Source: Actinospica robiniae DSM 44927 (GTDB taxonomy: Bacteria; Actinomycetota; Actinomycetes; Streptomycetales; Catenulisporaceae). From it: a stretch of 64,000 nucleotides of DNA. The stretch lies in assembly GCF_000504285.1 (NCBI RefSeq), contig NZ_KI632511.1:4585372-4649371 (forward strand). The letters are read 5' to 3'. Positions 7,465 to 59,556 of this stretch are shown here, one piece after another; the first letter of the stretch is position 1; every line of letters begins with the position of its first letter. The position numbers and the translations under genes are program-made. The notes below the pieces were generated by a model, which did not search any database, had not been told where the DNA came from, and worked only from the letters and a program-made list of their open reading frames with translations.

Positions 7465-8486
7465 TCGACACCGCCTGGCAGACAGACGCCCCGGCCTCGG
7501 AGTACACCGAGGTCCTCGTGCGCGACCTGACCGTGTGCTTCCGCACCGACCGCGGCGAGGAACTGCCGGCCGTCGCGCACGCCGACCTGACCCTGCCGGC
7601 GGGCAAGATCACCGGCCTGGTCGGCGAGTCGGGGTCGGGCAAGTCCACCCTCGCGTTCTCGCTGCTCGGCGCCGTGCCCCCGCCGGGCCGGATCACCTCG
7701 GGCTCCGTGCACATGACCGGGATCGGCGACGTCACCAAGCTCTCTGGCGCGAAGCTGCGCCGGATACGCGGCGGCAAGGTCGGCTACGTCTTCCAGGCGT
7801 CGCAGAACTCGTTGAATCCGCTCAAGACCGTCGGCAAGCAGCTGCTCGATCTCGGCCGGGCGCACGACGTGGAGTACCTGCCGGGTCTGGTGCGCCGGGC
7901 TCGCGAGCTGTGCGAGCTGATGGGCATGGACGGCAAGCGGGTGCTCGATTCCTACCAGCACGAGCTGTCCGGCGGCATGCGCCAGCGAGTGGGGATCGTC
8001 TTCGCTCTCGTCCTCAATGCCAGAGTCCTGGTTCTCGACGAGCCGACGACGGCGCTGGACATGCTCTCGCAGGCGGCGGTACTGAAGATCATCGGCCAGG
8101 TGCACAAGGACATCGGCCTCACGACCCTCATCGTCACCCACGACATGGGCGTCGTCTCCGAGCTCGCCGACCGGCTCGCTGTGATGTACGGCGGCCGCAT
8201 CGTCGAGGACGGTCCGGCGGAACAGGTGCTGCAGCGACCCTCGCACCCCTATACACGGGCTCTGATCAACGCGACAGCGCGGGTCTCCGGGGACATCTCG
8301 CGGGCCAAGGCGCTGCCGGGCCGCCCGCCCGACCTGGTCTCGATCCCCAAGCAGGGCTGCGTGTTCCGCGAGCGCTGCGCTTTCGCGATGGACCGCTGCG
8401 CGACCGAGGAGCCGCCGTTGCAGATCTGGGAGGGCGAGCGCCGCCGCGCCTGCCACGCCGACGCGCAGGAAGTGATCGGGTCGTGA
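7461..8486 (+). CDS. ABC transporter ATP-binding protein, DppD type
   Basis: This 341-aa ATPase powers the importer. Visible motifs are the P-loop GESGSGKST (55-63), the signature LSGGMRQR (169-176), Walker [13 protein letters not shown], and the C-terminal oligopeptide-transporter extension with paired cysteines (GCVFRERCAFAMDRC). The latter often binds an iron-sulfur cluster in this family. The GTG at 7461 overlaps the preceding stop as GTGA. The frame is open 28 codons upstream but those residues are the shadow of the permease gene. It pairs with the DppF-type ATPase that follows, again with a 4-nt overlap. Confidence 0.9.
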   Translation: MIDTAWQTDAPASEYTEVLVRDLTVCFRTDRGEELPAVAHADLTLPAGKITGLVGESGSGKSTLAFSLLGAVPPPGRITSGSVHMTGIGDVTKLSGAKLRRIRGGKVGYVFQASQNSLNPLKTVGKQLLDLGRAHDVEYLPGLVRRARELCELMGMDGKRVLDSYQHELSGGMRQRVGIVFALVLNARVLVLDEPTTALDMLSQAAVLKIIGQVHKDIGLTTLIVTHDMGVVSELADRLAVMYGGRIVEDGPAEQVLQRPSHPYTRALINATARVSGDISRAKALPGRPPDLVSIPKQGCVFRERCAFAMDRCATEEPPLQIWEGERRRACHADAQEVIGS

Positions 8487-9526
8487 TCGAGGCCAGCGGC
8501 ATAGCGCGGACGTTCCACGCACACGGAGCCTTCACCGGCGCTCGGGTCATCCAGGCCCTCCGGGGCATCGACTTCACGCTGCCGGACGGCGGAGCCGTCT
8601 CGTTCATCGGCGAATCCGGCTGCGGCAAGACGACGCTCGGCCGGATCCTCGCCGGGCTCGAGACCTTCGACGCGGGCGAGCTGACCGTCGACGGCCAGTC
8701 CGTCTCCGGGCTCAGCCATCACAAGCGCGCCGAGATCTTCCGAACGGTCCAGATGGTCCATCAGGACCCGTACTCGGTACTGAACCCGACCCGCACGGTC
8801 GCCACCACGCTCCGGGATCCGTTAAGGATGACGGCGAAGCGGGAGGGCAAGGGCGACGGCCGCGACGCGCTCGGCGCGCGTGCGCGGGAACTGCTCGAAC
8901 TCGTCGGCCTCGACCCGGACGGCGTCCTGCCGAAGTACCCGCACCAGCTCTCCGGCGGGCAGCGCCAGCGCGTGGTCATCGCCCGCGCGTTGACGGTGAA
9001 TCCGAAGGTCCTGATCGCCGACGAGGCCGTCTCGATGATCGACGTGTCGATGCGGCTGGGCATCCTCAGCCTGCTCCGGGACCTGCGCACACGGCTCGGC
9101 ATCGGCCTGGTCTTCATCACGCACGACGTCGCGACGTCCCGGTACCTCGGCGACGGCGGCGAGTTGCACGTGATCTACCGCGGCGAAGTGGTCGAGCGCG
9201 GCCCGGTAGAGACGGTGATCCAGTCGCCGACGCACCCGTACACGCAGTGCCTGCTCTCGGCCGTCCCCGTGCTCAAGGGCCTCGAGGAGCCCGGACCCGA
9301 CCGCCTCGCGCCGCGGGCACTGATGGACGCGACCGTCGAGACCCCCGGCTGCCTCTTCGAGCCGCGTTGCCCATTCGCCACGGAAAAGTGCCGCGACGAG
9401 CACCCGACGCTGGTCCAGGAGCAGATCGACGGTGTCGAGGTGGAGCACGCGTGCTTCCACCCGGCGATCCGCAGCGTCGCGGCCGTCGAACTCGACGCCG
9501 ACGTGGAAAGCCGGGACCTGCCCTAG
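8483..9526 (+). CDS. ABC transporter ATP-binding protein, DppF type
   Basis: The second ATPase of the importer is 347 aa. The P-loop GESGCGKTT starts at residue 43, the signature is LSGGQRQRV, and the C-terminal Cys-rich extension GCLFEPRCPFATEKC is present. Walker B reads IADEAVSMID where most relatives have DEPVSALD; the key D-E pair is kept. Leu114 is encoded by TTA (8822-8824), a codon read by the bldA tRNA in streptomycete-type bacteria. The GTG start at 8483 overlaps the previous stop. The stop codon lies only 6 bp before the left terminal repeat of element A. Confidence 0.9.
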   Translation: MIEASGIARTFHAHGAFTGARVIQALRGIDFTLPDGGAVSFIGESGCGKTTLGRILAGLETFDAGELTVDGQSVSGLSHHKRAEIFRTVQMVHQDPYSVLNPTRTVATTLRDPLRMTAKREGKGDGRDALGARARELLELVGLDPDGVLPKYPHQLSGGQRQRVVIARALTVNPKVLIADEAVSMIDVSMRLGILSLLRDLRTRLGIGLVFITHDVATSRYLGDGGELHVIYRGEVVERGPVETVIQSPTHPYTQCLLSAVPVLKGLEEPGPDRLAPRALMDATVETPGCLFEPRCPFATEKCRDEHPTLVQEQIDGVEVEHACFHPAIRSVAAVELDADVESRDLP

Positions 9527-9771
9527 CGCGCATTGATGATCGGCTGAGTGCTCGCCGCTTCGCGTCGCCCGTCTTGTCTGGCGACCCACCCACCCGTTGC
9601 GTTGGCGGGGCGGGTTGCGGTTTCAAGATCTCGCCGCCGGCGGGCCCTTCCCTCGGAGAGAGTGCCGGGGCTGCGTGGTCGCTGGCGTCAACGGGGCGGG
9701 CTGTTGTTCGGGGTGGTGGGGTTGCGGGTGTGTGCTCTCTCCTCGGTTGGTCCCCGGAGGCAATCAGGAAC

Positions 9772-9844
9772 CTGCCGGGAGGTCAAGCGGCGGTGGTTTC
9801 CGTTGATGGTGAATCATGCATCGCGCCGCTTGACCTCCCGGCAG
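9772..9844. repeat. Long hairpin A1 of element A
   Basis: CTGCCGGGAGGTCAAGCGGC (9772-9791) pairs perfectly with 9825-9844, enclosing a 33-nt loop. Outside a 3x3 internal loop (AAC/AAC) the stem continues with ATCAGG/CCTGAT, and further out GCTCTCTCCTCGG pairs with CCGAGGAGAGAGC. One of four copies in the window. Confidence 0.85.
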
Positions 9845-10475
9845 AACCCTGATCGGGCTTCGCCTGCCCGACCGAGGAGAGAGCCCACCCCCTGAGGCAG
9901 ATGTGCGAGCTGCGCTCGGGCCGAGTCCCGTGGCCCGGTCGCATTTCTCCTCCTTCAACGCAGGGGAGCACGTCCGAGTGTCCGGAAATCTCCAGGATTT
10001 TTGTTTATACGGTAAAAGCCGGATGCGCGGTTTTTATCGGTGGCGGCGTCTAGCATGGAAGAGTAGGGATCGGGGCTTGTGGCGGGAGGGTGGTGGACGG
10101 GTTGTGGCCCAAGACGGTGCAGGATTTCCCTTCGGGGTGTGACCGGGCCGCGCGATCCTGCGCGGTGCGCGAGCACCTGGCGGATCGGACCACGGCGATG
10201 CAGAATCCTTCCGCATCGAACGCGGGCCTGCGGGATTCCGCCGCGAGGCCTGGGATCAAGGTCGATCGCACCAAGGCGATGCACGATTCAGCAGCAAGCG
10301 CGACCCGAGCACCGACCCTTCACACGGATCAAGGATCCGGATGGCAGGACCACGGCAATGCAGGATTCCTCCGGACCGAGCGTGACCGGGCCACGGGATG
10401 GGACTCGGCCCGAGCGCAGCTCGCACCGGACCCTCAGGGGGTGGGCTCTCTCCTCGGTCGGGCAGGCGAAGCCCG

Positions 10476-10566
10476 ATCAGGGTTCTGCCGGGAGGTCAAG
10501 CGGCGCCATGCAGGATTCACCATCAACGGAGACTGCCGCCGCTTGACCTCCCGGCAGAACCCTGAT
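10476..10566. repeat. Long hairpin A2 of element A (29-bp perfect stem)
   Basis: 10476-10504 is exactly complementary to 10538-10566, giving a 29-bp stem with a 33-nt loop that contains CATGCAGGATTCACC. The outer GGGCTCTCTCCTCGG and CCGAGGAGAGAGC segments extend the structure. It is the inverted counterpart of hairpin A1. Confidence 0.85.
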
Positions 10567-10871
10567 TGCCTCCGGGGACCGGCCGAGGAGAGAGCACACC
10601 CCCGGCACCCGACCATCCCGAACCCCAGCCCGCCCCACCAACGCCAGCACCCACGCAACCCCGGCACTCTCTCCGAGGAAGGGCCCGCCGGCAGCGATTT
10701 TCGTCTTGAAACCGCAGGCCACCCCGTTACGCAACGGGTGGGCGGGTGGTCAGACAAACAGGGCGACGCGAAGCGCCCGCCCCACCCCGACAACCACCCC
10801 GACCCGACCCGACGAACCACCACGCCCCCACCGGCACCCAGCCGATCATCAACTCGCAGTAGAGCAATAAA

Positions 10872-56913: not shown

Positions 56914-58206
56914 ATGACGAGCACGCGGATCGCCGACTCGGCCCCGGCCCAGCCCTGGAGCAGCCGCACCCTGCGGGTGAACAACGAGCGCGTGCTGCTC
57001 GAGCGGCTGCGGGCCTCCGGCGCCACGTCCCGGGCCGAGCTCGCCCGCGTCACCGGCATCTCGAAGCCGACCGTCTCGGCCGCGCTCGGCAACCTCGAGC
57101 GGGCGGGCCTGGTGCGCGAGACCGGCGAGATGGCCACCGCGTCCGGCCGCGGGCGCTCGGCCGTGCTCTACGAGGTGAACCCGACCGCGGGCTACGTCGT
57201 CGGCATCGACATCGGACGGTCCCGGATCCGGGTCGCGCTGGCCGATCTGGACGGCACGCTGCGCGGAAGGCGCGAGGTGCCGACCGCGATCGAGGAGGCG
57301 CGGCCGGCCGACGCGTCGACCGCGGACTCGATCGTGGCCACCGCATCCGGACTGGCCCGCGAGGTGGTGGCCGAGGCGGGGCTCGAGTGGGACCGAGTCG
57401 TGCACACCGTCGTGGGCACGCCGGGCGTCTTCAACCCCGACACCGACGAGGTCCGCTACGCCGGCAGCCTGCCCGGCTGGGGCCGCGCCGGAGTGGTCGA
57501 GCGGCTGCGGAGCGAGTTGGGCACAAGTCTGGCCGTGCACAACGACGCGAACCTGGCCGCGCTCGGCGAGTACGCCTTCGGCGCGGGCCGCGGCTGCCCA
57601 CTGCTGGTGTTCCTGATGGTGGGCACGGGAGTCGGCGCCGGCATCGTGGTCAACGGCGAGGTCTTCGGCGGAGCGCACGGCGCAGCCGGCGAGGTCGGCT
57701 ACCTGCCGTTCCCGCCGGGGCAGAACCTCGACGGCCCAACTGGCCGTGCGGCCCGCAAGGATTCTGACCCCGCCGAGGCCGAGGCTCCGCACAACGCGTT
57801 CCTGCAGCGGGGCATGCTCGATGCCGCGGCCGGCGGCAGCGCGGTCGTACACCTCGCGGCCACCGCCGGTTCCCGCGAAGCGGGCAGCCCGAAGGCAGTC
57901 TTCGACGCCGCCCGCGCCGGCGACACGGCCGCCCTCACGGCCGTGCGCGCCGAAGCCGCGCGCCTCGCCCACGCGGTCGCCTCGATCGCCGCGATGCTCG
58001 ACCCCGCCCTTGTCATCCTCGGTGGCGGCATAGGCGACAACGCAGACCTGCTGCTCGACCCGCTGTACGACGCCCTCGAGACCCTGACTCCGCTGCGCCC
58101 ACCCGTAGTCGCCGCGGCGCTCGGCGGCGACGCCGTCCTGCTCGGCGCCATCGCGACCGCCCTGACCACCGCCCGTGAGTACGTGTTCGAAGGCCGTCGG
58201 CTCTAG
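56914..58206 (+). CDS. ROK-family transcriptional regulator without the usual zinc-binding motif
   Basis: This 430-aa ROK (repressor, ORF, kinase) protein has an N-terminal winged helix (SRAELARVTGISKPTVSAAL then GRGRSAVLYE) and a sugar-kinase-like domain (VVGIDIGRSRIRVA, VVGTPGVF, HNDANLAALGEY, GTGVGAGIV, HGAAGEVGYLPF). After GYLPF, where most ROK proteins have a CxCGxxGCxE zinc motif, there is PPGQNLDGPTGR and no cysteines. No ribosome site precedes the ATG; TACATT lies 7 nt upstream, as in leaderless mRNAs. It is a candidate regulator for the GH9 cellulase or the amino-sugar cluster. Its stop codon adjoins element B. Confidence 0.85.
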   Translation: MTSTRIADSAPAQPWSSRTLRVNNERVLLERLRASGATSRAELARVTGISKPTVSAALGNLERAGLVRETGEMATASGRGRSAVLYEVNPTAGYVVGIDIGRSRIRVALADLDGTLRGRREVPTAIEEARPADASTADSIVATASGLAREVVAEAGLEWDRVVHTVVGTPGVFNPDTDEVRYAGSLPGWGRAGVVERLRSELGTSLAVHNDANLAALGEYAFGAGRGCPLLVFLMVGTGVGAGIVVNGEVFGGAHGAAGEVGYLPFPPGQNLDGPTGRAARKDSDPAEAEAPHNAFLQRGMLDAAAGGSAVVHLAATAGSREAGSPKAVFDAARAGDTAALTAVRAEAARLAHAVASIAAMLDPALVILGGGIGDNADLLLDPLYDALETLTPLRPPVVAAALGGDAVLLGAIATALTTAREYVFEGRRL

Positions 58207-58491
58207 GTCTCGGCTGAGTGCTCGTGGGCCTCGGTGGCTTGTCGGGTCGGGGTGGTTGTCGGGGTGGGGGCGGCCGCTTCGCGCCGCCCGGTTCTTCTGT
58301 CCACCCGCCCACCCGTTGCGTTGGCGGGGCGGCCTGCGGTTTCAAGATCTCGCCGCCGGCGGGCCCTTCCCTCGGAGAGAGATGCCGGGGTTTGTGGGGT
58401 GCTGTCGTTGGTGGGGCGGGCTGTTGTTCGGGATGGTGGAGTTGCGGGGGTGTGCTCTCTCCTCGGTCGGTCCCCGGAGGCAATCAGGAAC

Positions 58492-58564
58492 CTGCCGGGA
58501 GGTCAAGCGGCGGAGGTTTCCGTTGGTGGTGAATCCTGCAGCGCGCCGCTTGACCTCCCGGCAG
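58492..58564. repeat. Long hairpin B1 of element B
   Basis: CTGCCGGGAGGTCAAGCGGC (58492-58511) pairs perfectly with 58545-58564 around a 33-nt loop, as in hairpin A1, with the same AAC/AAC internal loop below it. Confidence 0.85.
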
Positions 58565-59273
58565 AACCCTGATCGGGCTTCGCCTGCCCGACCGAGGAGA
58601 GAGCCCACCCCCTGAGGGTCCGGTGCGAGCTGCGCTCAGGCCGAGTCCCATCCCGCGGCCCGGTCACGCTCGGTCCGGAAGAATCCTGCATTGCCGTGGT
58701 CCTGCCATCCGGATCCTTGATCCGTGTGAAGGGTCGGTGCTCGGGTCGCGCTTGCTGCTGAATCGTGCATCGCCTTGGTGCGATCGACCTTGATCCCAGG
58801 CCTCGCGGCAGAATCCCGCAGGCCGGCCGCGTTCGATGCGGAAGAATCCTCCATCACCCTGATCCGGCCATCTCGATCCCCGATCCGCGCGAAGAGGTCG
58901 GTGCTCGGGTCCGCAGCCCGGTCGCACCCCGAGGGGAAATCCTGCACCGCTTTCGGCCACACCCCGTCCACCACCCCTCCCATCACAAGTCCTGATCCCC
59001 TTACTCTTCCATGCTAGACGCCACCACCGACAAAAACCGCGAATCAGGCTTTCACCGGATAAGCAGAAATTACTGGAGATTTCCGGGCACTTGCTCGTGC
59101 TCCCCGGCGTTGAAGGAGTAGAGAGGAAGAGCGGCCCAGAACGGCGATGCAGAATCTTTCCGCGCCGAGCACGACCGGGCCACGGGCTCGGACCCGGGCC
59201 CGAGCGCAGCTCGCACCACTCCCCAGGGGGTGGGCTCTCTCCTCGGTCGGGCAGGCGAAGCCCGATCAGGGTT

Positions 59274-59346
59274 CTGCCGGGAGGTCAAGCGGCGCCATGC
59301 ACAATCGACCATCAACGGAAACCACCGCCGCTTGACCTCCCGGCAG
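59274..59346. repeat. Long hairpin B2 of element B
   Basis: The same 20-bp stem (59274-59293 with 59327-59346) and a 33-nt loop. Unlike hairpin A2, the next base pairs are interrupted (GGTTC opposite GTTCC), so the perfect part is 20 bp. Confidence 0.85.
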
Positions 59347-59556
59347 GTTCCTGATTGCCTCCGGGGACCGGCCGAGGAGAGAGCACACACCCGCAACCCC
59401 ACCACCCCGAACCCCAGCCCGCCCCACCAACGACAGCAACCACGCAGCCCCGGCACTCTCTCCGAGGGAAGGGCCCGCCAGCGGCGTTTTTCGTCTTGAA
59501 ACGCAGGCCACCCCACCAGCGCTCAGCCGATCATCAATTCGCGATAAAGCAAGAAG

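Follow-up and report, generated by a model that had tools for sequence, protein, structure and literature searches.

The DNA analysed here (the window) is a 64,000-nucleotide stretch of Actinospica robiniae DSM 44927 that sits in a single 9.92-Mb contig of the genome. Next to the stop codon of an ABC-transporter ORF lies element A, a 1,334-bp near-palindrome (9526-10859) with terminal inverted repeats, arms of ~375 nt, two long hairpins and GCAGGATTC-like motifs in its core, and an inverted second copy lies in the same window (Table 1). The original prediction, made from the sequence alone, had described 19-bp terminal repeats with one mismatch, and these were found as TTGATGATCGGCTGAGTGC at 9533-9551 against the reverse complement of 10834-10852. 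The inverted arms it described were also recovered, with a main repeat of 287 nt at 89% identity that extends, if gaps are allowed, to the full arms of Table 1. Both predicted hairpins are strong, folding at -38.2 (left) and -46.6 kcal/mol (right) with z scores of -7.0 and -11.7, and none of the shuffled sequences folded equally well. The repeated core motif, TGC(A/G)xGATTC-like, occurs at 9811 on the minus strand and at 10509 in addition to the five positions of the array, and its strict form TGCABGATTC is confined, within the 64-kb window, to the two element copies. In the genome, the motif TGC(A/G)(A/C/G)(A/G)ATYC is about four times denser in the masked copies than outside, which is an underestimate because many unpaired copies stayed in the background.

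Table 1. Coordinates of element A, its parts and the second copy in the window.
Feature	Position	Strand	Remarks
Non-autonomous element	9526..10859	+	Strand is the orientation of the lost DUF222-HNH gene; ends taken from aligned genomic copies
Left-boundary TA	9524..9525	.	Bases 1-2 of the TAG that ends the upstream ABC-transporter ORF (7535-9526)
Right-boundary TA	10860..10861	.	Putative target-site duplication
Left terminal inverted repeat	9526..9551	+	GCGCGCATTGATGATCGGCTGAGTGC; family consensus NNGCGANTTGATGATCGGCTGAGTGC
Right terminal inverted repeat	10834..10859	-	Minus-strand reading CTGCGAGTTGATGATCGGCTGGGTGC
Left inverted arm	9556..9929	+	Complementary to the right arm, 87% over 379 nt
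Right inverted arm	10400..10775	-	Pairs with the left arm; no fixed left/right difference (30 copies)
Left hairpin, 30-nt stem	9763..9853	+	GATGCATGATTCACC (minus strand) in the loop
Right hairpin, 33-nt stem	10476..10566	+	ATGCAGGATTCACC in the loop
Leader and first-codon remnant of the DUF222-HNH gene	9946..10104	+	GTGGTGGACGGG at 10090; ~71-72% identity to the leaders of L104 and L089
TGC(A/G)xGATTC-like motif array	10118..10385	+	10118, 10199, 10229, 10280, 10359; candidate protein-binding sites
3' tail and right arm common to gene-bearing copies	10359..10793	+	86% identity to L104 and L089
Second window copy	58206..59544	-	Eroded left terminal repeat; TA at 58204-58205 (within the upstream ORF's TAG stop codon) and at 59545-59546

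Two points of the prediction needed correction. The extent of 9533-10852 captured the element but fell short of its ends: alignment of twenty genomic copies with their flanks, and then of 48 paired copies, places the ends further out, at 9526 and 10859, with a TA outside each, and the family terminus reads YTA/NNGCGANTTGATGATCGGCTGAGTGC (also written YTA/NNGCGANTTGATGATCGGC; the slash marks the boundary) in most of the 48. An intact coding frame is absent, as had been stated. Longer copies, however, carry a gene whose leader and start-codon region are homologous to 9946-10104.

The reservation that only the two window copies might exist proved unfounded. When the genome was searched with terminal and arm motifs, as had been proposed, the 21-base arm motif gave 115 forward and 105 reverse matches (2 and 0 for the reversed control) and the terminal motif gave 67 and 75 matches by strand (0 and 0 for the control). 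Each copy provides one arm per strand, and the 9.9-Mb chromosome therefore carries ~105-115 dispersed copies of the family with conserved termini; a whole-element search returned at least 140 matching pieces among the 40 candidate places scored. The cores differ between copies by insertions and deletions, and the copies are diverged, eroded and in many cases interrupted by other insertion sequences. Those nested in element copies are of the IS256/Mutator, IS110, IS1182-like and IS630 types (L087, L088, L090, L091, L095, L100, L105, L177), and one 447-aa IS256-type transposase recurs in several copies. Among the terminal matches listed, only two with at most one mismatch fall within the 2.9 Mb between 5.0 and 7.9 Mb, against dozens between 1.9 and 5.0 Mb, and the copy-poor region is possibly the chromosome core.

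Recent movement is documented for one gene-less copy. The copies at 3,588,208 and 8,365,425 agree at 99.4% of positions over 1,448 bp, have unrelated flanks and lie 4.8 Mb apart, and two gene-bearing copies of another subfamily at ~311 kb and 3.234 Mb are near-identical (arms 93-98%). Two paralogous empty sites place the insertion point at CTAG. At the first, the empty sequence GGCGGAACGGCTGATC/TAGATGT near 2.687 Mb corresponds to the occupied GGCGGAACGGCTGATCTA-element-TAGAT near 3.327 Mb (in short form, GGCTGATC/TAGATGT and GGCTGATCTA-element-TAGAT), and both flanks combined are consistent with one extra TA, although the right side there shares only 5 bases. The second site is a small repeat ending ACGGCCTAG. 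Empty versions stand at 6.40 Mb and, in the form GCGGCCTAG, at 313.8 kb, and the one at 8.367 Mb holds the element; in short form, ACGGC/CTAG repeats against ACGGCCTA-element, this site supports the insertion point. As regards the suggested flanking duplications, TA stands at both boundaries in most of the 48 paired copies, and the duplication itself is supported by the single first site. A 3-bp duplication (TAG/CTA) was rejected because the third base of the end pairs, read by hand, does not covary. A second palindromic repeat of ~190-200 bp is also dispersed in the genome (17 matches; L212 at ~313,600-313,840 and L213-L227); some of its copies end in CGGCCTAG, and at least one has a copy of the large element at its CTAG end. 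The arms of 30 short copies were tried as subfamily markers and rejected, for left and right show no fixed difference, being 86.0% identical within copies and 84.7%, 87.0% and 85.8% identical between copies. The simplest cause of this interchangeability would be recombination between arms, which would invert the core.

The longer relatives that had been suggested do exist. The full-length form of ~2.6 kb consists, in order, of TA, a terminal inverted repeat, a hairpin arm of ~375 nt, a leader, a DUF222-HNH gene, a motif array, a second hairpin arm, a terminal repeat and TA; its gene encodes an HNH endonuclease and no recognisable transposase. In the main subfamily, six copies hold an ORF ending in the HNH domain (L083/L133, L104, L092, L089, L111 and L129, although a start-motif search did not locate the gene start of L129), and two more are interrupted by IS256-type elements (L091 and L100). 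Copies missed by the DUF222 profile were found by inspecting the space between widely spaced arms. Pairwise dN/dS among five main-subfamily copies is 0.15-0.25, indicating purifying selection on the gene. Element A aligns to L104 and L089 over the arms, the 5' leader and the tail, with the ORF missing, and because it has kept the leader, the start-codon region and the 3' tail and lacks the remainder, it is an internal-deletion, non-autonomous derivative. A search with the leader of the main gene type gave 82 matches in the sequence analysed, from which it follows that most gene-less copies arose by deletion within the main subfamily. The earlier suggestion of a non-autonomous transposable element is therefore upheld by the copy number, the conserved termini, the insertion at CTAG with TA, the duplicated pair and the gene-bearing relatives.

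The MITE-like status of element A is likewise well supported. Dispersed copies with conserved termini, terminal repeats bounded by TA (its duplication supported at one site), and an internal deletion relative to L104 and L089 were all found. Like bacterial MITEs, element A has terminal inverted repeats, a short boundary duplication and many copies, lacks an intact gene and originated by internal deletion of longer gene-bearing copies. It differs from them in its length (1.3 kb, large for a MITE), most of which is taken up by inverted arms, and in its partner gene, which encodes an HNH endonuclease and no known transposase.

The protein encoded by the longer copies is of the DUF222 (13E12 family) type. 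L083 scores 45.6 bits against the DUF222 Pfam profile (curated cut-off, 24.4), and L104 and L089, which are 87-94% identical and near-identical to L083, fall below detection by the profile. Matches to HNH (PF01844) were obtained in the proteins scanned, and C376, C381, H392, H393, C412 and H416 of the C-terminal HNH domain are invariant in 27 proteins. The predicted structure (pLDDT 79, pTM 0.73) comprises a helical DUF222 part and an HNH domain; in a search against the PDB the former had no convincing match, and HNH domains alone matched, weakly. NCBIfam gave a weak HNH-level match to IscB, far under its cut-off, and PADLOC gave none. The linker between the two domains (L083, L085, L092) contains repeats of AGMKDPSAHV and similar sequences. 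At the DNA level these repeats look like the GATGCAGGATTC motif found in the non-coding tail, which would fit an expansion of motif arrays into the ORF.

Taken together, we consider it probable, at roughly 60%, that element A is MITE-like, having arisen by internal deletion from a palindromic transposon specific to this lineage, and that the DUF222-HNH protein would mobilise it in trans. In the mechanism we propose, the protein would bind the terminal, hairpin-loop and internal motifs, cut the element ends and CTAG with a 2-nt stagger that would yield the TA duplication, and move gene-less copies in trans, with homologous recombination between arms keeping left and right interchangeable. The protein is favoured as the mobiliser because its gene is the sole one recognised in the ~2.6-kb copies and is under selection, and because the derivatives keep the ends and the motif array. 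We infer the mobilising enzyme and do not regard it as established, since the IS630/Tc1-like insertion at TA/CTAG and the uncoupling of gene and arms at one locus, described below, count against it. We know of no catalytic precedent for a transposase that relies on HNH alone. The stronger claim that DUF222-HNH (13E12) proteins are a previously unrecognised class of transposition enzyme, in which an HNH nuclease excises a palindromic element and inserts it at CTAG with a 2-bp TA duplication, mobilising many gene-less copies, is accordingly put forward as tentative.

The alternative that survives best, though we think it unlikely, is that an IS630/Tc1-mariner DDE transposase moves the element in trans and the DUF222-HNH gene is cargo. 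The TA at both boundaries and the CTAG preference are features of that group, of which ISY100 makes a TA duplication (PMC2170065), and the genome has five DDE_3 matches. The element's gene-bearing copies, in contrast, lack a DDE transposase, its long hairpin arms set it apart, and the only DDE_3 gene observed between element arms belongs to a nested insertion. The terminal repeat of the intact two-copy IS630 (L177/L178), TAGTGCCGTATCAGGCTACATTC, is unlike that of the element, and the other DDE_3 loci have no element-like ends; IS630 terminal repeats were therefore rejected as the source of the element ends for lack of similarity, L177/L178 being the only loci with identifiable repeats. Purifying selection on the DUF222-HNH gene also speaks against a mere passenger. 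The element resembles IS630 in the TA duplication, supported at a single site, and in the CTAG preference, whereas neither DDE_3 in full-length copies nor repeats shared with the resident IS630 were found.

Less probable still is that the protein is a homing-type endonuclease whose gene invaded an existing palindromic repeat, repeats and genes then having spread largely by gene conversion. At L084 (8,248,814), the DUF222 protein shares only 41% identity with the main type and the arms around it are 87-95% identical to those of element A, so gene and arms can be uncoupled, and a gene swap or homing-like invasion is possible at this locus. The interchangeable arms fit such a history, as does the frequent gene conversion of REP13E12 loci of Mycobacterium tuberculosis that is reported in a 2026 preprint (PMC13061034). 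However, the retention of one gene type's leader by most gene-less copies, and of the start-codon region as well by element A, argues that gene-less copies descend from gene-bearing ones, and gene conversion by itself cannot account for an identical copy, termini included, at a site with unrelated flanks.

The position of the copies relative to genes raises a further alternative. Of the 87 ends tested, 20 (from 20 of 48 copies, ~40%) have their boundary TA within a long ORF's stop codon, as is also the case for both window copies, against 12 of 168 control CTAG sites, and a converging long ORF ends within 60 nt of 45 of the 87 ends against 22 of the 168 controls; since each copy is read in two directions and each control site in one, the per-copy enrichment is smaller, roughly threefold. 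These frequencies, together with the strong hairpins, would suit a host-domesticated repeat, acting as a bidirectional terminator or mRNA stabiliser at gene 3' ends or as a chromosome-architecture site, whose mobility is incidental. We regard this as very improbable, because selection against gene disruption gives the same bias and the copies are diverged, eroded and riddled with other insertion sequences. A CTAG target plus such selection can suffice to explain the bias, insertions at stop codons or gene 3' ends surviving because neighbouring genes stay intact, and the role of a genome-architecture repeat, which had also been considered, may be a secondary one. REP/BIME palindromes with TnpA-REP (REPtrons) are numerous hairpin-forming intergenic repeats near gene ends. 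The element shares their abundance, hairpins and location, but is far larger and has classical terminal inverted repeats and TA boundaries, and no Y1 transposase was seen in its gene-bearing copies. The remaining suggestion, a structured non-coding RNA locus, agrees with the length, the folding and the absence of an intact ORF, but is hardly credible given that Rfam gave no match above the gathering score and that the element is a symmetric palindrome with an indel-variable core and descends from a protein-coding element.

DUF222 is widespread (108 of the 148 genomes sampled from the class), and the arms are not. By self-comparison, five of the six Pfam-DUF222 genes in the genome of the window are flanked by inverted arms, and the sixth (L082) has an arm-like match on one side only; a congener (G002) also has a DUF222-HNH gene flanked by related arms. 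Among 40 DUF222 loci, long inverted arms were found at 5 of 6 in this genome, at 1 of 3 in congeners and, within 1.5 kb, at 0 of 31 in other genera. The other-genus loci scored 19-31 bits in a test whose pooled control had a median of 24 and reached 172 bits, the 99% threshold being conservative because that control paired related loci of the same genus. It follows from the 0 of 31 that DUF222-HNH proteins do not generally work with such arms. Multi-copy, dispersed genes for DUF222 with a C-terminal HNH domain are shared with the 13E12/REP13E12 repeats of Mycobacterium and other actinobacteria, but in the sampled genomes outside the genus the gene comes without inverted arms. The repeated unit of genome G052 comprises the gene and a leader of ~120 nt that carries an SOS-box-like GAACATATGTTCGA; the unit stops close to the stop codon, and inverted terminal repeats were not found in these units (L180-L189). 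The paralogues have an abrupt common 5' boundary and a palindromic CTGACGC..CGTCAG start, the box in their leaders being LexA-box-like. The arm-less unit and the 31 arm-less loci together indicate that the palindromic architecture is lineage-specific, and it looks genus-specific. Clear but diverged homologues were found in two congeners only, with marginal matches elsewhere, a conserved 22-mer of the arm gave a single unrelated chance match in the genomes of other species, and plasmid and phage collections held no similar DNA. At one congener locus (L075, G001:C406), a 609-bp inverted repeat (96%) flanks an IS256-type transposase gene and adjoins element-like arms, and several contigs of that draft end inside arms.

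Few multi-copy genes of unknown role are as common in Actinobacteria as those for DUF222-HNH proteins. The REP13E12 regions of M. tuberculosis are described as having no defined biological function in the 2026 preprint (PMC13061034), titles and abstracts of the papers listed for DUF222 or 13E12 yielded no description of terminal repeats, and as far as we have found the family had not previously been tied to such an element. The present study ties such a gene to a mobile unit whose ends and target site are defined, which has moved recently and has non-autonomous derivatives, and the question of whether its nuclease is a mobility enzyme thereby becomes testable. If the DUF222-HNH protein is indeed such an enzyme, it would represent a new chemistry for DNA transposition.
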